Position numbers and translations under genes: made by a program | Source: Raphanus sativus | Lineage: Eukaryota > Streptophyta > Magnoliopsida > Brassicales > Brassicaceae | Assembly (NCBI RefSeq): GCF_000801105.2 | Contig: NC_079512.1 | Coordinates: 2,418,263 to 2,482,262 of the forward strand | Direction of reading: 5' to 3' | Length of the DNA: 64,000 nucleotides | Notes under the pieces: generated by a model | The model's input: the letters and a program-made list of their open reading frames with translations, nothing else | Databases searched by the model: none | Told to the model about the DNA's origin: nothing | Part shown: positions 19,961 through 61,943 of the stretch, one piece after another | Position numbering within the stretch: the first letter of the stretch is position 1 | Layout of the letters: each line of letters begins with the position of its first letter

Positions 19961-20054
<94 letters not shown>

Positions 20055-22098
20055 CTCTTCTTACTTTGTCTGGGACAGTCTCTGATGATTGCTGCAATTC
20101 CAAATATCATTGGATGGCTCTGCATATCATTTGCAAAAGTGAGTTATCTTGTTGTCATCCAATTTTCCTTCAATTCAGTTTCTGAACATGTTGGTTTTTG
20201 TGTTAGGATACTTCTTTTCTTTACATGGGAAGGCTTTTAGAAGGCTTTGGTGTTGGTATCATCTCTTACACGGTAACCACTCAAACTCACCTAGTCTTGT
20301 TCTTCCTTATGAAAATAATTCATTTGGTGTATTTATGCAACTCTTCTCTTCAGGTGCCTGTATATATCGCTGAGATTGCTCCACAAAACATGAGAGGAGG
20401 ATTGGGTTCGGTTAACCAGGTTTTTGAAAAATGTCTTAAACCAATTTTGATGAACATGCAACTACTTTTCTCTGCTAACTATTTAATATTTTTTTTTCTG
20501 TAGCTTTCGGTAACAATTGGAATAATGCTGGCTTACTTACTTGGCCTCTTTGTTCCATGGAGAATTCTAGCAGTTCTTGGTAAAACCTTGAGACCATTTT
20601 TTTTTTATCTGTAAAGCTCTAAAGCACTTTCTTGATTTGTATTCCTTTAACCTTAATAGGGACATTGCCTTGCATAGTACTCATACCAGGCCTCTTTTTC
20701 ATCCCTGAATCCCCTCGCTGGCTGGTACATTTTTCTTTTTTTAGCTCAGTGCATGTTGTGGTTAATCCACACTCTAATGAGACGCTTTCTTTTTTTTTGT
20801 TTAAAATGTTAGGCAAAAATGGGTATGACTGATGATTTTGAGACTTCGTTACAAGTCCTTAGGGGATTTGAGACGGATATTACCGTTGAGGTTAATGAGA
20901 TCAAGGTATATTAATTACATCTAACTAAGTTGTTGGTTTCAAAAAGGTACCATGAAGACAGATGTTTAAAACACTTACTTTTTTTTTGTAATAAATGTGC
21001 AGAGATCTGTAGCATCATCTACAAAGAGATCATCTACAGTTCGGTTTGTAGATCTCAAGCGCAGGAGATACTACTTCCCTCTCATGGTTGGTATTGGGTT
21101 GCTTGTACTTCAACAACTCGGTGGAATCAATGGCGTCCTGTTTTATTCTAGTACAATCTTTGAATCTGCAGGTAGGGCCTTGCCTTAAGAACACCTGATG
21201 CTTCTTGTTTCATAGTGTCTTATATTCTCTTCTTTTTTTTCATAATTATAGGAGTTACCTCGAGTAACGCAGCAACATTTGGAGTCGGTGCTATTCAGGT
21301 AGTGGCCACTGCAATCTCAACATGGTTGGTGGACAAAGCAGGTCGTAGGCTTCTACTTACAGTGAGTATCAATCAGTTCATTAGTTTCATATCTTTAAGA
21401 CAAAACTATTAAGGCAAATGGAAATGTTTTTGTAGATCTCTTCTATTGGGATGACTATTAGCCTTGTGATTGTCGCAGCTGCTTTCTACCTTAAGGTAAT
21501 TTTTATTAACTTCTCTCAACACCATTGTTTTTATCTTCTCCACCAATCTGCGGTTTAATCTTTTTGAGTTTTTGCATGTAGGGATTTGTGTCTCCTGATT
21601 CAGACATGTACAATATGTTGAGCATCTTGTCAGTGGTTGGAGTAGTGGTAAGTTTGTTTGTCTTTTGTTATATATTGAAACTTATTATCTTTGCTTTTAA
21701 CACTGTTGGATCATTCATTACACAGGCAATGGTTGTTACTTTCTCACTGGGAATGGGACCGATTCCATGGCTCATTATGTCTGAGGTATAATTTAGAAAG
21801 TTAGAACTTAAAAAAAAGCGTTAATGAAACTACCTTCTGATTGATTATTGTTGTCGTTTTGATGAAACAGATCCTTCCTGTGAACATAAAGGGTTTAGCT
21901 GGGAGTATAGCAACTTTAGCGAATTGGTTCTTCTCATGGTTGATCACCATGACTGCAAACCTGCTCTTAGCCTGGAGCAGTGGAGGAACTTTCACCCTGT
22001 ACGGTGTGGTTTGTGCGTTCACGGTGGTGTTTGTGACTCTGTGGGTTCCTGAGACCAAAGGGAAAACGCTTGAAGAACTTCAAGCCTTGTTCAGATGA
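19377..22098 (+). CDS. ERDL6: Vacuolar sugar transporter ERD6-like 6 (ERDL6)
   Basis: MFS sugar-porter protein of 488 residues from 15 exons: 19377-19571, 19691-19753, 19840-19929, 20079-20138, 20207-20272, 20354-20419, 20504-20579, 20660-20724, 20813-20905, 21003-21171, 21252-21361, 21436-21495, 21582-21647, 21726-21785, 21871-22098. All introns are GT-AG and the joined frame stays open. Family marks: EYIGRKG after TM2-3, PESPRWL at the end of TM6, [14 protein letters not shown] in TM7, DKAGRR in the second-half loop, [11 protein letters not shown] at the C-terminus; about 12 membrane segments. The sequence follows recalled Arabidopsis At1g75220 (487 aa), a tonoplast proton-coupled exporter of glucose from the vacuole. 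A close paralogue (At1g19450) exists, so the symbol rests partly on neighbourhood. Intron 3 carries a ~90-bp ATA microsatellite. Confidence 0.95.
19963..20053. repeat. (ATA)n microsatellite in ERDL6 intron 3
   Basis: About 30 uninterrupted ATA units inside the 149-bp third intron, ending about 25 bases before the acceptor at 20078. It creates spurious Leu- or Tyr-run reading frames on the minus strand. Length is likely polymorphic. Confidence 0.97.
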
Positions 22099-22560
22099 GA
22101 AAATTCTAAACAGTTTCATTCTTTTGTATTTATCTCTCTACATCTCTGTTTTGGCCAAAGAACAAGAAGAAACAAAGATATATGGTGAGAAATTGCTAAG
22201 ATTTGTTTGTTTGTTATGTCAATAATCTTCTGTCACAATGTTGTATATGACCACACTTTCATGTGTCTTTTTTTTTTTTAAATTTGATTAAGTTATTCCC
22301 ATAGACTATAACTATGACAGACTATTTGATCAAATTCAAATTCACTATTGCCACAATTATGAACAAAGAAAAGTTTGAAATCTGGTTTATAAGGATTGAA
22401 TTTCAATTTTTTTTTTTTGATAAAAAGTTTCTTGACAACTTATGTCACAAAAGAAAGGAATATATTCGTCGGTGAAAATCAGAATAAAGAATAAGATGGA
22501 CCTCATTGGGACAAGCTCAAAAAAAAGAATAAGATGGGCCTCATTGGGCCTAATTTAAAA
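22099..22560. other. ERDL6 3' flank
   Basis: 3' untranslated region and AT-rich spacer. AAGAATAAGATGG and CCTCATTGGG each occur twice in direct orientation at 22485-22550. Confidence 0.5.
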
Positions 22561-22639
22561 CTATTAAACCTATATGTGAAACTCATTTATCTGCAGGATA
22601 GACAAAAACTTGAGGTGAAGATACATCGTACGTATTATA

Positions 22640-23283
22640 ACATGACACGTGGAGATCGAAGCGCCGTCCATTTGAAAATTGTATCTGTTGCTCCGTTTAA
22701 AGATGCTCTGATGAATATTATATATCAGAGGGAATGTTAATTTCATCGGTTCATCACTTTTTAGGGTTCTCTCCCAATTTTTTCCTCTCGAAATTTCTAG
22801 AGACAAACAACTCTTTCGCCGAAGATTCTTACAGGCGGAAGTTCACGAGGCTCTTAAATTAGTAATTTTTATCTCGATTGATCCTGAATTTGTTTTTCTT
22901 GGTTCCGTTTATAGGGCTTGATTGGGTTTTTATGATTTTGATTTAGGGTTTCAAGTTTCCTCAATCGTTCCTTTGATTATTATTGTTGTAGCGATCCTGG
23001 AAAGCGTTTGAATGGGAGTGGAATCATCGTTTGAGGTAACATCTCGTCTGATTGTTTTTGTACGGACGATTAGTTTTCTTTGAGATGATTTGTATGTATT
23101 TTGAGCAATTGACATGAGAACCATGATATATTTGATTTACAGTATAACTTGGAACCTGATCGTGCTCTAGATTATGAATGTTATCCATATCTTGACTTCA
23201 AATTGGTTATATACCTACGTAACTTTCTGGGTTCAAAGATTGTTTCTTTTACTTGTTTTCACCGTACAAGTCACTCACTTTAG

Positions 23284-23320
<37 letters not shown>

Positions 23321-23340
23321 ACAGTTACAGGGGGTGTGGA
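22640..23340 (+). promoter_or_regulatory. Promoter-like start and 5' exon-like segments of an unrecognised locus
   Basis: Seen in order: a CACGTG G-box (22646-22651), a TATA-like TATTATATAT (22716-22725), then a TC-rich leader containing TTAGGGTTCTC. Splice-like junctions follow: a possible exon end GTTTGAG followed by GTAACATC at about 23035, an acceptor TTTACAG near 23142, and CAGTTACAG before GGGGTGTGG at about 23330. A short potential frame begins ATGGGAGTGGAATC near 23010 but does not extend into a recognisable protein. This looks like the 5' end of a spliced transcription unit reading into the array at 23.7-26.3 kb. Expression is inferred from sequence only. Confidence 0.45.
23285..23317. 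repeat. (CT)n microsatellite
   Basis: An uninterrupted CT run of about 33 bases, just upstream of the splice-like acceptor near 23330. Confidence 0.95.
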
Positions 23341-23699
23341 GAAACCATCATTGACAGATTGAAGTTCAGTGCGAATCTTTGACTTGAACGGCTAAAGAAG
23401 TAACAACAACAACAAAAACAGATAAGTTCTTTTACTTCTTTACTCTTTTATGTTTTGTAGACACTCTTCTACTGAAGATTCTTACTTTTAGTTATCGTTT
23501 TATCAACCCCTCAAAAGATCATGGGCAGACACTAATCTAATAGTGTTTCTGCCAGATTCTTGTTTTGGGGGACATTGTCCCGAGTCCCTTGTTGCGTGAA
23601 AAGCTTTAGACCCAGAGGAAATTTAAACCCATCTCCCTAGAAACTGTTGGTAATTGGTAGTGCATGTCTAAGAAAAGAGATGTTTGGGGGATGGAAAGT

Positions 23700-26320
23700 A
23701 AAACATACTTTAGTACCCACGGCTTTTCAGAAACAACCATCGGCTTAAAAATAATCTTTAGACAGAAAAATAGCTATGTCTTTAGACAAAAAGGCTATGA
23801 ATTGGTTTGAGCTTGTTGGATGGAAAATAACGACCACAAGTCATGAAAACTAATTGTCCCGAGTCTCGTTGCGTTATGAAAAGTAGTTGGAAAATCTAGT
23901 TACCCACGGCTTTTGTTAATGAGTGGTTTTAAACCATGTTGGTATGTACGGTTGGAGAGAGATGTCTTCAGACAAAGACTCTCGATCCAAACCACATCCA
24001 TTTCTTACCCACAGCTTTATGAAGCAAGTGATGTTTGAGGATGCAAAGTGTGATAAAAAAATTAGTACCCACGGCTTAAAAACAACAACTTTTTTGGCAG
24101 AGATTGTGATTGAAAACGTATGCATACGTCAGTACCCACGGCTTTAAAACCAGTCTTTAGACAGAGACTGAGATTGAAAACGTATGCATTACGTCAGTAC
24201 CACACGGCTTTGCAAAACAGTCTTTAGACAGAGACTGTGATTAAGATATCGTCATCACATAAGTACTAAGGCTTGCAAAAAAAAAGGCTTTTAGACAGAC
24301 TCTGAATGATAACGTCTTTGTCACATTTGTACCCACGGCTCTAGACAAAGACAATGAGTGAACACTTCTTTATTAGACAAAAAGGCTATGAATTGGTTTG
24401 AGCTTGTTGGATGGAAAATAACGACCACAAGTGATGAAAACCAATTGTCCCAAGTCCAGTTGCGTGAAATAACGATCACAAGTTATGAAAAGTAGTTGGA
24501 AATCTTGTTACCCACGGCTTTTGTTAATGGGTGGTTTTAGACAATATTGGTATGTAAGAAGTCTTCAGACAAAGACTCTAGATCTAAACCACATCCATTG
24601 CTTATCCACAGCTCTATGAAGCAAAGGATGTTTGAGGATGCAAAGTGTGATACAATTAGTACCCACGGCTTAAAAAACAAGTCTTTAGACAGAGACTTGA
24701 TTGAATAAACGTATTCATTACGTTAGTACCACGGCTTGCAAAAAAAAAAGAATTCTTGAGACAAAGAGTGTGAATAATAAAATTAGTACCAACGGCTTGC
24801 AAAAAAGGTCTGTAGACAAAGATTGTGTGCTGTGATTAAAAACTTTTTCAGTACATTTGTACCCACGGCTTTGCAAAACAGTCTTTAGACAGAGACTGTG
24901 ATTAAGATATCTTCATCACATAAGTACTAAGGCTTGCAAAAAGGTCTTTATTAGACAAAGACTGAGTTTTCATCACACTTGTGTACCCACGGCTTATATA
25001 AAGTATCAAGACAGGCTGGTAACTGAAAAAAAGATTGTACCCACGGCTTATGAAAAGTATTAAGACAAAGGTTTTAACTGAAAAAAGATGGCATTAAGAC
25101 AAACGCTTACCAAAAAAGGGTCTTTAGACACAGGCTGTGAATGAAAAGTTCTTTATCACACTTGTACCCTCGGCTTTGCAAGAAAGTCTACAGACAAAGA
25201 CAGTGAGTGAACACCTCTTCAATATGTTAACTGTGATTGAAAATGTCATCACATTGTACCCACGGCTAGACAGACTGGGTTGAAAACGTGTTCTACTATA
25301 CATTAGTTACTTACGGCTTAGAAAAGACCAACGGCTTACAAAAAAAAAATTGTAGACAAAGGCTATTCTAAGGCTAATGAGATAGTTGGAAGGATTCATT
25401 AAGACAAACTATGAGCTGGTTTGGGAGATAAAAGATCCCAGGTTATGAAAAATAATTGGAAAATCTTGCTACCCACGGCTTTATTAAGAGGTGATATATA
25501 CGGTTTGAGATAAGTCTTCAGACAAAGACTCTAAATCTAAACCACATCCATTGCTTACCCACAGCTCTAAGAAGCAAAAGATGTTTAAGGATGCGAATTT
25601 AGTACTAACGGCTTATAAACAAATCTTTAGACAGAGACACTGATGTATTTGTTACATTAGTAAATAGTACCCACGGCTTAACAAAGAGTCATCAGACAAA
25701 GACTGAATCTAAAAAGATTCATTGCTTACTACCCACGACTTAGAAAAAAATTTCAGACATCGGCTATGTTACTTTTTCAGTACCCACGGCTTGGAAACTT
25801 TACTGCTCAGTACCCACAGCTCTAAGAAGCAAAATATGTTAAAGGATGCAAAGTGTGACAAAAATTTAGTACTAACGGCTTATAAACAAGTCTTTAGACA
25901 GAGACACTGATTGTAAACGTATCTAGTACCCACGGCTTGCAAAAATGAAGTCTTTACACTGATTTAAAATGTATTCGTTACATTAGCATATAGTACCCAC
26001 GGCTTAACAAAGAGTCATCAGACAAAGACTGAATCTAGAAAAAAATTCAGACATCGGCTAAGTTGCTTTTCCAGTACCCACGGCTTGGAAACAACGTTAC
26101 TGCTCAATAAACGTCTTAAGGCAAAAGACTATGAGCTGAAAAAACATTTTCAGTAACCACGGCTTATAAAGAAGTTTAGACAAAGACTGCACATCAGTTT
26201 TTGGCTTTGTTGGATGGGAAACATAACCAATGGTTTAAACCAAGTCTTTAAGATAGAGACTATAAACAAAATTGGGTTTTAGCTTGCTTGTTGGATGGTT
26301 AGAACGACCAACAGCTTACA
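23700..26320 (+). repeat. Array of ~30 CCCACGGCT boxes with paired small palindromes
   Basis: The phrase ACCCACGGCT occurs about 17 times exactly (for example near 23716, 23902, 24067, 24134, 24331, 24510, 24660, 24985, 25470, 25780, 25993, 26077), with about a dozen one- or two-base variants (ACCACGGCT, ACTAACGGCT, ACCCACAGCT, ACTAAGGCT). It is usually preceded by TTAGT or TTGT. After 8-20 A-rich bases most copies are followed by AGTCTTTAGACAAAGACT or variants, an imperfect palindrome able to form a stem-loop. Basic spacing is about 60-90 bp but irregular. A higher-order unit of ~590 bp is also seen: 23790-24095 and 24380-24690 align throughout, with weaker copies near 25400-25640 and 25800-25915. 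All frames are full of stops, so it is non-coding. I know no described family with this module. Confidence 0.9.
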
Positions 26321-26379
26321 CCATGAACCAAAACTAACACTATTCCTTTATTTTATCATTTGCGGCTAAACTCAGAAGC

Positions 26380-27125
26380 TAGAAAGCTACTAATCGAGTC
26401 TTACGTTGCTCTATGCAGAGGTGATACACAGCTGGAGGCACTGATCAGGCTCTCGGAAGCAATTGCTAGGAGGTGACAAGTTATCAATTTTCTTTATCTC
26501 TGAACTTTGTTTTTTTTTTCAGGTGAAACCGAGTCATGTTCTTCTATAGCTGTCAGACTTCTTCAGTTATCAAAGGTAACTTTCAAACCTCTTTTTCTTT
26601 ACTTATCTCCTGATATCTCCCAAAATCTCAGTCACATATTCATTTCTCTTATCCAGTGTTAAGTTAGGTGATATTGATCCAGAGTATCAAGATGCTAGGG
26701 GCACAGATGGATTTGAAAATCCTGGTAATGGGGATGAAGATCAACAGAAGGGTGCAGCCGAGCCAGCTCCTCTGCTACTGCAAATACTTAAGCACCTCTT
26801 CCTTTTGATCTGAGTCACTTAAGAACCATAACAAACATCATTGTGTATTCTCAACAGATAATGGAGAAGCAGCTCCAATGAAAGAATCACACAGGCCTTA
26901 AGTCATTCGCTTTTAGACAACACAAAGACACTGTAAGCAAAGACAGTAAGCAACTAAGCACTCTTCAGTTCTCGCGAGACCATTACTTTCTCTCTTCAAC
27001 TCGTGATACAACTTAACTCTTATTCTTCTTTAGGTTCTGATGGAATCAGCAGAACGAGAAAAAAGAAATACAGTTCGCAAGAGCAAGTCAAACTTGATAT
27101 CAAGGAACTCAGAGCCATTACTGAG
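26380..27125 (+). other. Exon-like segments downstream of the CCCACGGCT array
   Basis: Several stretches flanked by good splice signals follow the array: one after TATGCAG at ~26418 (readable as [16 protein letters not shown]), one after TTTTTTCAG at ~26521 ending CAAAG before GTAAC at 26575, one after TATCCAG at ~26656 (acidic, GDIDPEYQDARGTDGFENPG), one after CAACAG at ~26860, and one after TTCTTTAG at ~27035 ending ACTGAG before GTAAATCC at 27126 (basic, SRTRKKKYSSQEQVK). Composition is gene-like compared with the flanks, but I could not join them in one open frame. This is either a decayed protein gene, a lncRNA with exonised remnants, or a gene I failed to splice. I do not recognise the peptides. 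Confidence 0.4.
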
Positions 27126-27249
27126 GTAAATCCAATCCAAAACATTAACTGTAGGGATATATTCCTCTTATTTTACCACTTCAAGGGTAAAAACTCACGA
27201 GGTAACTATGAAGTATTTTTCGTCAACTAAAAAGTAAAAACTAAACATT

Positions 27250-28520
27250 TTGAATGTTTTTGATTTTGTGTCATGCGTTTAACCCTCTGTAGTCATTCTA
27301 AACGAGTTAGCATCTCTTTATTTTGGTGTTTGTATGTATTGTAGGGTCTCTCATTTCATTGAAATCTATGTATCTTGGATTCTCTGGTAGATAAACATAA
27401 GTGAGAGATTCCTTCAGTTGTAGTAGTATTTTTGAATCTTGATGAATGTTTTTTATTTTGCGTTACCTTCAGTGACAATTCTAAACAGTGTTAGTATCTC
27501 TTTAGTTTGGTGCTTTTATGTATTTTAAGGTTTCTCTTTCATGAACTAGACTATATTTTAGGGTCTTTTGTAGATTAACAGGCGAAGAAACTCATACAGA
27601 TTTTGTGAGTAGTTTCCTTGAATTTTGAATGTATTTGTTTTGTGTTATGCTCCTCCTACGCTCAGTGATCAATCTAAACCGCATTAGTAATCTGTATGTT
27701 GATTAGAAAAAGTTATTATTCTAAATTAGTTTGGTACTTGTATGTACCTATTATAATGTATTATTTTTATGAAGTCACTTCTAGATCAATGTAGGTGATA
27801 AACTCTTGCCGTATGTGGTCGTAGTTTCCTTAAAATCTTGAAATGTAACTGTTTTGTGTTGTACTCCTAACCCTCGGTGATCATTGTAAACATGTGAAAT
27901 GGCATCTTCACAAATCTGCATATTGATTATACTGTGTTAGATTCTATAAATTGTATATGTTGACTTGAGTTTTTCAGTGATTGAAATTTTCTCTGTTATC
28001 AAGTCTATCTCTTGATCTCTGAGTCTTGGCAACATTTATCATCGGTTTAGTATATGTGAGATTGTATTAGTATATGTGAGATTTAGAAACTTATTGCTTG
28101 TTAATCCTTGAAAACTTTAAGTGATATATACTTATAAGAAAATACCATTTAAGCATCAGAAATGTTTCTTAAAGAACTATTTTCATATCATTACTAACTA
28201 CAACCCTATAAGTGATTTAGCATTTGTAGGATTCTAGAAACTGATCGATAATATATATATCCATTCATGAGAAGGTTATTTTATTTTGTGTTTATATTGT
28301 TGCTTTGTTTGGTGCTTGTATGTATCTTGCCGCTTGTGAGAATAGGTTTATTGAATTTTGAATGTTTAGGTTTTGTTTTATTACTCTAAATACTCTGTGA
28401 TCATTTCTAAACATGTGAAATGATAAGTCCACAATCCTCATATGCTGATGATCACTGTGTTACATTCTATAATTGTACATTACAGCCTATCCCTTGATCA
28501 CTGAGTTTCTAAGAAACGGC
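27250..28520. repeat. Diverged tandem array with ~190-500 bp units
   Basis: A recurring motif, GAATGT-x-TTTTGTGTTATGC, then CTCTGTGATCATTCTAAAC and GTTAGCATCT, begins at about 27250, 27440, 27625, 27839 and 28357. Units 1-3 also share TTTGGTGCTTGTATGTAT and a stretch ending AGTTTCCTTGAATTTTGAA. Units 4 and 5 share CATGTGAAATG and ACTGTGTTAGATTCTATAA. Spacing is uneven and divergence high. No reading frame. It may be intronic or 3' sequence of the same locus as the array at 23.7-26.3 kb. Confidence 0.7.
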
Positions 28521-29148
28521 ATTTGGGGTTGCTTAACTAAAGAGTCTTGTTGTGACTTGTGAATCCATGTTATCGATTATGACTATATTGCAATAGATTC
28601 AACTTTAATGTTTAGAGAGAAAAATCATTACTTTTTTACAAAGACAATTTGAATTTCATATGTACATAAACAATCATGTTCTTTGTATATTTTAATATCT
28701 TTGTGGTAGATTATAAGATCTGTTTCTTGCATTATGTTTGGTCATCATATCGTCTATTGCTTGTTCTTGGCTTCAGTTGATATAACATCATTGACGTTTG
28801 CTTCTCTCTTGATTCTTGGAATATAGTTAGTATGGTAAACTGATATCTCCGCTTTATTTTCTTTTGGATGTTAGATCACATAGCTTTTTCTTCTTCTATA
28901 GTCTACATTCTTTTTTTTTTGTCACGAAACTATAGTCTACATTCTTTACTCTGATTAATTAGTTGATAAGTACAGCAAGTTTCATATTAAATAACGTTTT
29001 ACCTACTAATAATAGACAAAGTTGTTTCACTAGCAATATCCATTAGTTTATTAAGTTATCCGTTCACCATGAGCGATGAATCTTTTCGGTATCATTCAAA
29101 TATCCGGAAGTGACGTTACCATCATCAGTTACCCAAACAAAACATTAA
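28520..29148. other. AT-rich intergenic region
   Basis: Nothing recognisable as a gene. A small direct repeat of TATAGTCTACATTC at about 28899-28945 flanks a T-rich, transposon-like scrap. Confidence 0.45.
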
Positions 29149-29754
29149 GGGCCTGACTGGTGTAACTGCAGCGGTTGCGGGAGTTTGCGGGTGCGGGTGG
29201 TTGCGGTTTTAAGCGTTTTTTAGAGATTTGTATGACTGGTATAGCTGTTAGAAATTGTTGCGTTTGCGGGACTCTTATGACTGGTAAACTACAAAACGCA
29301 ACATCTGTTAAATAATAATTTAACAATATTTACATTTTATGTAATTATAAAAATATTAAAAATCATAAAAATATGATAAATATAAAATTTATATTTATAA
29401 AATCATATTATTCAATTTTAAAAATTTATAGAAAATATTTTAGTTTTGAATTTTATAATATAAATTGAAATATAATATAAATACATTTTACAATTTCTAT
29501 TATTTCAATTGAAAATTTTTATTGGATATTTTTAGTATTATTTTTATTTATTCTGTTTTTAAAGAAAAAAAATTTACCCTCCCGCAACTGCCCGCAACCG
29601 CAAACGCTAGCTGGAACCAGCTTTTGATTTTAAGAGGTTCAGAGCGGTTTGAAGCGTTTTGTAGTGTTTTCTGTGATTGTTTCGAAACGCCAACAACCGC
29701 TATAAACCGCAAAAGCTGCGTTTGCGGGTGGTAGCGGAAAGACCAGTCGGCACC
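29149..29754 (-). mobile_element. GC-box MITE (TGACTGG ends), copy 2
   Basis: Inverted, near full-length copy of the element at 14176-14798. It starts GGGCCTGACTGGTGTAACTG and ends with the complement of GGTGCCGACTGGTCTTTCCG. The AT-rich core matches the complement of copy 1 closely (for instance TTTTATTGGATATTTTTAG). Confidence 0.8.
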
Positions 29755-29759
29755 TAAAC

Positions 29760-30487
29760 AAACCTACTACAGCTAAATCCCTGTCAAGCATTATTATGAA
29801 ACTAATAATTTTAATTAACTCTCTAAAACTAATTAAACATTGTTTGGCAAAATTTGTTTCTATCTGATCCAATAATTACTAATCAAAAGGTATTTCTTTT
29901 CCCATGCCTGTTTTTAACTAATTTATAACCAAAAACAATAGTTTAACGATGAACACGCACAGTATTTAAGCCTATTGATACCAACTCTTGACCGGTGTGT
30001 TCTTTCCGCTTGTATTGTATCTGAACAAGTTTGAATGAATGAAATTAAGTGATGTTACAGAAAAAAAAGGTAAATATTGTGAAGAATATTGCCACCCTGT
30101 AACCACCGGTTGGTAGATGCAATTTGTATGTTAGGTTTGAGCTCTATTAAGAGCTTCCAACTCTATATTAAATCCACAAAATACATTTCTTACACTTCTA
30201 TATAACTCCATTTCTTGCTATATTATTGCTTTCTTCTTTAATTATATATGGTTGCGTATGATGCAAGTACTTTCTTAGTTTATTTCATTTTTAAACATCG
30301 TCCTCTTCTTTTAATGAGCAGCTTTATTTTAATATTCAAACCGTGAAATGGTTTTTAAAGAGTACTACGAATCATACAGTCAACGTACTAGCTAAAAATA
30401 AAAGATTATGAAACTCATACAACAAAACTTATGAGCCATCACAAGCAAAAACGGCACGACGTTCACTTTTTTCATCAAGAAGGCTAT
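29760..30487. other. Intergenic region
   Basis: No gene or bounded element seen; AT-rich with scattered short frames. Confidence 0.5.
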
Positions 30488-50290: not shown

Positions 50291-50297
50291 GAACTAG

Positions 50298-51539
50298 TAT
50301 TGATGAGAAACATCCCACATCGGAAATATAAGAATTATTCTACTATTATATAAAGGGTTAGGGCCAATCCACTAATTGCCAATTGGTTTTAAGTTGGAAG
50401 CCCATAATTAACCCGAATCTAACATGGTATCAGAGCGACAAGATCCTTTGACCTAATTTACTACAACTACTACTACACCGGTGTTGGGCCCTCTGTGGAT
50501 GTTATTCCCACAATTGTCCACGCTTCAGACCTAGATGTCTGAGCGTGAGGGAGGGTATTGATGAGAAACATCCCACATCGGAAATATAAGAATTATTCTA
50601 CTATTATATAAAGGGTTAGGGCCAATCCACTAATTGCCAATTGGTTTTAAGTTGGAAGCCCATAATTAACCCGAATCTAACATGGTATCAGAGCAATAAG
50701 ATCCTCTGACCTAATTTACTACAACTACTACTACACCGGTGTTGGACCCTCTGTGGATGTTATTCCCACAATTGTCCACGCTTCAGACCTAGATGTCTGA
50801 GCGTGAGGGAGGGTATTGATGAGAAACATCCCACATCGGAAATATAAGAATTATTCTACTACTATATAAAGGGTTAGGGCCAATCCACTAATCTGGTATT
50901 GATGAGAAACATCCCACATCGGAAATATAAGAATTATTCTACTACTATATAAAGGGTTAGGGCCAATCCACTAATCGCCAATTGGTTTTAAGTTGGAAGC
51001 CCATAATTAACTCGAATCTAACATGGTATCAGAGCGACAAGATCCTTTGACCTAATTTACTACAACTACTACTACACCGGTGTTGGGCCCTCTGTGGATG
51101 TTATTCCCACAATTGTCCACGCTTCAGACCTAGATGTCTAAGCGTGAGGGAGGGTATTGATGAGAAACATCCCACATCGGAAATATAAGAATTATTCTAC
51201 TATTATATAAAGGGTTAGGGCCAATCCACTAATTGCCAATTGGTTTTAAGTTGGAAGCCCATAATTAACCCGAATCTAACATGGTATCAGAGCAATAAGA
51301 TCCTCTGACCTAATTTACTACAACTACTACTACACCGGTGTTGGACCCTCTGTGGATGTTATTCCCACAATTGTCCACGCTTCAGACCTAGATGTCTGAG
51401 CGTGAGGGAGGGTATTGATGAGAAACATCCCACATCGGAAATATAAGAATTATTCTACTACTATATAAAGGGTTAGGGCCAATCCACTAATCGCCAATTG
51501 GTTTTAAGTTGGAATCCCATAATTAACCCGAATCTAACA
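50298..51539 (+). mobile_element. Concatenated TRIM retrotransposon (six LTRs, four internal domains)
   Basis: LTRs of 127 bp (TATTGATGAGAAACATCCCA to CGAATCTAACA) lie at 50298-50424, 50556-50682, 50814-50893 (truncated), 50897-51023, 51155-51281 and 51413-51539. Each full internal domain (~131 bp) begins right after an LTR with TGGTATCAGAGC, the primer-binding site complementary to initiator tRNA-Met, and ends in the purine tract GAGCGTGAGGGAGGG. No coding capacity. The whole block is flanked by the 5-bp repeat ACTAG (50293-50297 and 51540-51544), so it behaves as one insertion. Repeats differ by only a few bases. Tandem LTR-internal-LTR concatemers are known for TRIMs and probably arose by unequal recombination or template switching. 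Confidence 0.95.

Positions 51540-61844: not shown

Positions 61845-61943
<99 letters not shown>
61845..61943. repeat. (AAT)n microsatellite
   Basis: About 33 uninterrupted AAT units inside the Helitron-like element. The Asn-run and Ile-run frames here are artefacts of the repeat. Confidence 0.97.

Follow-up and report, generated by a model that had tools for sequence, protein, structure and literature searches.

The window (the whole stretch of DNA that we analyzed, 64,000 nucleotides from Raphanus sativus) contains a repeat array that is one of about 40 related gene-like loci, which are scattered through the genome, are apparently non-coding, and look like a poorly known RNA gene family. 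We consider it fairly secure that this multi-locus family of structured noncoding loci is real. At the level of sequence, the core of the family has a fixed order and lies on a single strand: a donor-like site, a structured element that we will call the head, an array of moderately conserved boxes, and an acceptor with a short exon.

In the window, the array runs from 23,714 to 26,164 on the + strand and consists of TACCCACGGCTT-type boxes with irregular spacers, which partly form hairpins. Allowing 1 mismatch, ACCCACGGCT is found 25 times, always on the + strand (23,715-26,164). By chance, 0.71 copies would be expected, and the maximum among 100 shuffles was 5. At the same threshold, the - strand of the window contains no boxes. 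A preliminary description of this DNA reported about 30 boxes, which is fair, since 17 boxes are exact and 33 are within 2 mismatches (in 23,601-26,400). It also reported higher-order copies of about 590 bp, and self-alignment confirms these: 23,782-24,239 and 24,373-24,827 (both +) are 79% identical over 487 bp, at an offset of about 591 bp. Similarly, the reading frames in the array are closed, as it stated: the longest of the listed open reading frames (60 amino acids or more) has just 74 amino acids. As a test for a protein-coding gene, we found no open frame through the array or through the conserved exon. The monomers of 60-90 bp are not regular, however; as measured, the boxes are spaced irregularly, by 30-197 bp, with a median of 89 bp.

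The array is not unique: the box is present in dozens of loci. The exact 12-mer TACCCACGGCTT occurs 591 times in the genome (433 Mb in 6,413 contigs), as compared to 10 times for the reversed control. Allowing 2 mismatches, a pattern search of the genome for the head core gave 73 matches, versus 15 for its control, and most of the large contigs were represented. We examined 50 stretches, picked by box or head match rather than at random: the window, 10 stretches from the box matches listed (all on contig 1), and 39 from head matches. (Another 20 of the 73 head matches lie outside these stretches.) The 50 stretches include 406 of the 591 exact 12-mers, with 406 in the sense orientation and 0 antisense. 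Counting all boxes in the 50 stretches, 653 are sense and 0 are antisense, and none lies 5' of the first head. The ~75-bp head is followed by one or more boxes on the same strand in 41 of the 50 stretches, and by at least 3 boxes in 37. Two or more same-strand boxes lie 3' of the head for 23/23 heads with no mismatches, 15/16 with 1 mismatch, and 7/13 with 2 mismatches, so this holds for 38 of the 39 examined heads at 0-1 mismatch. Boxes are absent from L034 (1 head mismatch) and from L048, L050, L051, L053, and L056 (2 mismatches), while L052 contains a single box; we excluded all seven from the alignment and from the tallies of conservation, stems, and folding. At 99.7% identity, L057 is perhaps the same locus as L028; we kept it among the 41 and in the alignment of heads. 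The family has subfamilies, and the window is closest to L045 (85-89% identity), followed by L014, L033, L037, L039, L046, L042, and L028. (The copy in L016 has a long stretch of Ns in its left flank.)

The head is an element of about 75-95 bp, just 5' of the array, that is common to the loci listed by box match. In the window, it spans 23,507-23,582 (+), as judged from alignment, covariation, and folding, with an outer stem at 23,507-23,570 and an inner hairpin at 23,524-23,553. RNAalifold, run on 11 copies, predicted this nested hairpin. Across 46 copies (40 of them distinct), 93.2% of the cells are paired, as compared to 39-53% if the structure is slid along the alignment. Changes on both sides of a pair are seen for 6 of the 20 pairs, in 17 cells. 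The covariation score is 0.150, versus 0.120 +/- 0.007 for shuffled alignments, and none of 500 shuffles, which leave the relatedness of the loci uncontrolled, scored as high. Sliding the structure by +1 raises the two-sided changes to 7 pairs (19 cells), yet just 40% of cells are then paired and the score falls to 0.065. As an example of a compensatory change, one pair is GC in the group that includes the window, AU in the groups of L010 and L012, and GU elsewhere; at another pair, CG replaces GC in L017 and L029. These stem changes represent few events, which became fixed in subfamilies. The head also folds better in the sense direction: across 34 loci, the mean fold z is -3.03 for the sense strand and -2.26 for the antisense strand (p = 0.0014). 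We searched positions 20,000-30,000 of the window against Rfam 15 and obtained 3 matches, with E values of up to 1 and far below the gathering score; none of these was on the head or the array. The head hairpin, which the preliminary description did not notice, is the best evidence for the RNA-level module that it proposed; the small palindrome that it emphasized lacks clear covariation. In one subfamily (L012, L013, L021, L024, and L025), the head is tandemly duplicated.

The box itself is conserved to a lesser degree than was first suggested. We compared the units of each locus to one another (559 self-alignments): 8.3% of box sites differ, versus 14.2% of the remaining sites. Under the same choice of sites, the neutral expectation for the box is 13.3%, and other frequent words diverge by 8.0-13.6%; therefore, the box is conserved moderately and not uniquely. 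In particular, one arm word of the long stem (described below) has 8.0% divergence, so the box is no better kept. Thus, the box is indeed kept above its background, but it is not exceptional in this. Within the box, sites 5 and 6 diverge the most, with CpG decay. We also compared boxes between pairs of paralogs (3.8% versus 9.2% divergence), and we discounted this as evidence of conservation because the boxes were chosen to be exact in one partner, which alone roughly halves the expected value.

As for the small palindrome, an example is AGTCTTTAGACAGAGACT at 24,152-24,169 (+), which is predicted to form an 8-bp hairpin within its unit. It was said to follow most boxes, but a AGTCTTTAGACAAAGACT-like palindrome (up to 4 mismatches) within 60 nt 3' of the box was found for 11 of the 25 boxes in the window. 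The sequence of the small hairpin is conserved, and its pairing (0.772 versus 0.738 if shuffled, across 202 hairpins) is marginal, with the inner pair inside the shuffled range. So, we do not view it as a covarying RNA module. Separately, some units in the window contain a perfect palindrome, ACGTATGCATACGT (at 24,100-24,135), immediately 5' of the box.

In predicted folds, the box is mostly unpaired and lies beside stems. The repeat unit in subfamilies A-D has a long stem with three adjacent pairs that covary: they are paired in 0.83, 0.85, and 0.81 of 131 units, as compared to 0.64, 0.68, and 0.65 if shuffled. The arms are TGATT/AATCA in 11 loci, CAGTT/AACTG in 7, and CGATT/AATCG in 3. In L012 and its relatives, the repeated units have 18-bp arms (GAATCTGTTTTCAGTTAT / ATAACTGAAAACAGATTC). 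The window's own units lack the long stem, and only one of the 6 array windows within the window's own array has a fold z below -2. Across loci, array windows have a fold z of -1.30, versus +0.13 for upstream controls. Because the two strands are similar (-1.30 versus -1.20, p = 0.32), the folding of the array has no strand preference and hairpins at the DNA level are possible there.

Several features around the head and the array are gene-like. A promoter-like stretch and a 5' leader with putative exon-like pieces (22,600-23,480, +) recur in the window's subfamily at 64-76% identity (for instance, in L045, L042, L014, L033, L039, and L046), and 22,741-23,876 aligns with L014 at 68%. Therefore, the leader is part of the unit, and this bears out the earlier view of a gene-like locus with a promoter-like start. 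A donor-like site lies 5' of the head in 23 of the 41 loci with a head, as compared to an expectation of 0.06 from the antisense strand, scaled to equal length; by the same rule, none was found in the window's own subfamily. Downstream of the array, 18 of the 50 stretches have a conserved acceptor and a short block that resembles an exon, with AG/GT borders (GTTTGTGCTTCAGAAGG...GACAG|GT). Many of the stretches end upstream of this block, and it was never found on the antisense strand. The length of this conserved 3' exon shifts by amounts other than multiples of three, which marks it as non-coding. (A second repeat, around TCATGTCTTTACACTTCTGCATT, lies 3' of the conserved exon at 6800-7265 of L012 and at 8590-8800 of L010.)

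In the window's subfamily, a fragment of an MCM6 gene takes the place of the short 3' exon. This fragment (26,360-27,135, +) corresponds to the C-terminal part of MCM6, with introns, and is 69-95% identical at the DNA level to L063, which is a spliced gene on C4 and is MCM6 by comparison to PDB (E = 1.5e-15) and Pfam. Positions 26,381-26,473 of the window hit MCM_lid in Pfam with E = 0.0011, which is below the curated cut-off. Thus, the segments at 26.4-27.1 kb, which had been taken for exons of a long noncoding RNA, are a gene fragment. The region has 26 matches in the genome, including L063 as well as L014, L033, L037, L039, L042, L045, and L046. Given the recurring leader and the subfamily's MCM6 fragment, the window's locus is a complete member with subfamily-specific ends. 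Further 3', a region of diverged repeats (27,247-28,460, +) is common to L014, L018, L059, and L060 by sequence comparison.

We tentatively propose that these are dispersed noncoding genes, at about 40 loci at least, whose transcribed intron serves as a multivalent platform; together with the claim for the family, we give this slightly less than an even chance. Each locus would be transcribed from the head towards the array. The head would fold near the 5' side of a probable intron of 2-3.5 kb, as suggested by the donor-like site upstream and the conserved acceptor and exon downstream. The array would then present 3-31 single-stranded boxes (UACCCACGGCUU), separated by local stems. Most likely, one RNA-binding protein would bind to every box (or one RNA would pair with every box), so that the transcript would act as a multivalent platform or decoy. 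The head might stabilize the RNA, anchor it, or recruit other factors. We infer the transcription, the intron, the binding, and the function. The fixed strand and order are also expected from common descent plus tandem duplication. We also count against the RNA platform that the array's folding is strand-neutral, that the covariation of the palindrome is unclear, that the box is kept about as well as one stem arm, that the donor rule finds nothing in the window's own subfamily, and that copies with 93-95% identity and unrelated flanks on different chromosomes look like mobility. A more specific version seems doubtful to us: in Brassicaceae, the noncoding genes would be a class peculiar to the lineage, and their large intron would be a structured, multivalent RNA that combines a covarying head with tens of identical single-stranded boxes for one dedicated partner.

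The chief rival, which we think is somewhat unlikely, is a non-autonomous mobile element that captures genes, either Helitron-like or another type that lacks terminal inverted repeats. The boxes and palindromes would then be internal repeats that bind protein at the DNA level, and the head would be a by-product or a signal for replication or transcription. The dispersal is indeed transposition-like or segmental. L059 and L060 (on C9 and C4) have about 6.6 kb in common, with 95.3% identity over the main 5.3 kb, and L061 and L062 (on C4 and C3) have about 6.5 kb in common in L061, with 93.4% identity over 4.3 kb. The members of each pair lie on different chromosomes, and beyond the common stretches of about 6.4-6.6 kb the flanks are unrelated. 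Also, gene fragments are carried along, such as MCM6 in the window's subfamily. On the other hand, comparing the ends of L059-L062 gave no terminal inverted repeats, just AT-rich matches of chance length and one 10-mer. Helitrons have a 5' TC and a 3' hairpin with CTRR, and they insert between A and T; by eye, none of these marks was seen at the ends of the two pairs, where the positions of the true ends are uncertain. The ends of the common sequence differ between subfamilies, one pair shares a neighboring stretch, no ORF for a transposase or replicase was recognized among the few ORFs that we compared to Pfam, and the head's folding is biased towards the RNA sense strand. The preliminary description had held that many copies with transposon ends would indicate a repeat family: the many copies exist, but no such ends are seen in L059-L062. 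Gene-capturing Helitrons and Pack-type elements are likewise dispersed and carry gene fragments, while this family has no recognized element ends and has an ordered, structured core across subfamilies. If it is a mobile element nevertheless, then an internal RNA-like structure is maintained while gene fragments are carried.

The remaining explanations are less probable. The array's stem-loops could be cut by Dicer-like enzymes to yield siRNAs, and some stems do reach 18-24 bp (as in L012 and its relatives), but the window's own units have no long stem and we consider a source of small RNAs improbable. In this regard, the family resembles the CLSY3/CLSY4 siren loci of Arabidopsis, which are also dispersed and noncoding with a repeated short DNA motif (PMC12270911, PMC8752594); the motifs there are TTTTGCTTAT and AAGCGGAT, each in spaced pairs. 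Allowing 1 mismatch per repeat, we found no such pairs on either strand of 232,649 bases. The absence of these published motifs (PMC12270911) from all 50 stretches, at this mismatch limit, counts against siren loci. A cluster of transcription factor binding sites, with the box as a DNA site and the palindrome as a dimer site, would account for the many identical short sites per locus, the palindromic partner, and the strand-neutral folding of the array. The strict orientation of the boxes (653 versus 0 in 50 stretches) and the RNA-like head make this quite improbable. Least probable of all is a satellite that is carried by duplicated segments and decays there, neither its box nor its head being under selection. 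The irregular nested copies and the CpG decay inside the box fit with decay, but within loci the box diverges less than the neutral expectation (8.3% versus 13.3%), the box and the head are common to subfamilies whose spacers cannot be aligned, and there are compensatory changes.

To return to the RNA platform, the comparison to the A-repeats of Xist and to roX is based on a short conserved box beside stem-loops, repeated in one transcript. Unlike these, the radish family comprises dozens of dispersed, possibly intronic loci with putative transcription and function. If the proposal is true, then a crop plant has a multi-locus family of noncoding RNAs with a covarying fold and, in tens of copies at each locus, a nearly fixed box; such features are rare in the lncRNAs of plants. 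This box would also be a direct handle for pulling down the partner.

The head might overlap with the Brassica-trans motif, which is a structured RNA with significant covariation that is found in Brassicaceae only, in many copies per species, and with no consistent gene context (PMC12218528, RNA Biol. 2025). We likened the two by description only: the head is similar in its clade, in its copy number, and in the absence of gene context (73 head matches, versus 15 for the control, and differing flanks). In so far as the text of PMC12218528 is available, it does not mention a box array, a gene unit, or an exon. The motif may instead correspond to the unit; even if the head is the Brassica-trans motif, the ordered unit of leader, head, box array, and exon would be new. 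If the lineage-specific class of genes is real, this orphan motif would gain the gene context that it lacks. Our literature searches gave no use of ACCCACGGCT in a plant element among the matches listed, and no match at all for the head core CACTAATCTAATAGTG; wider searches led only to the Brassica-trans motif. A 22-mer from the head was absent from non-plant genome and viral contigs, which says little about other plants, and paired boxes were absent from viral contigs (plants were outside the scope of this search).

Upstream of the leader, a sugar transporter gene (Sugar_tr in Pfam, two exons) ends near 22.1 kb. The window has perfect (ATA)n microsatellites of about 30 units at 19,963-20,053, inside the sugar transporter gene, and at 61,846-61,943. 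An insert at 3020-4240 of L010 resembles fragments of protein kinase genes, with a likeness to MUT9-like kinases; one 30-amino-acid piece of it has no match in Pfam. Finally, positions 50,297-51,539 of the window contain a tandem array with units of 258/341 bp that are 97-100% alike, with nested copies of 83 bp, which reflects a very recent expansion.
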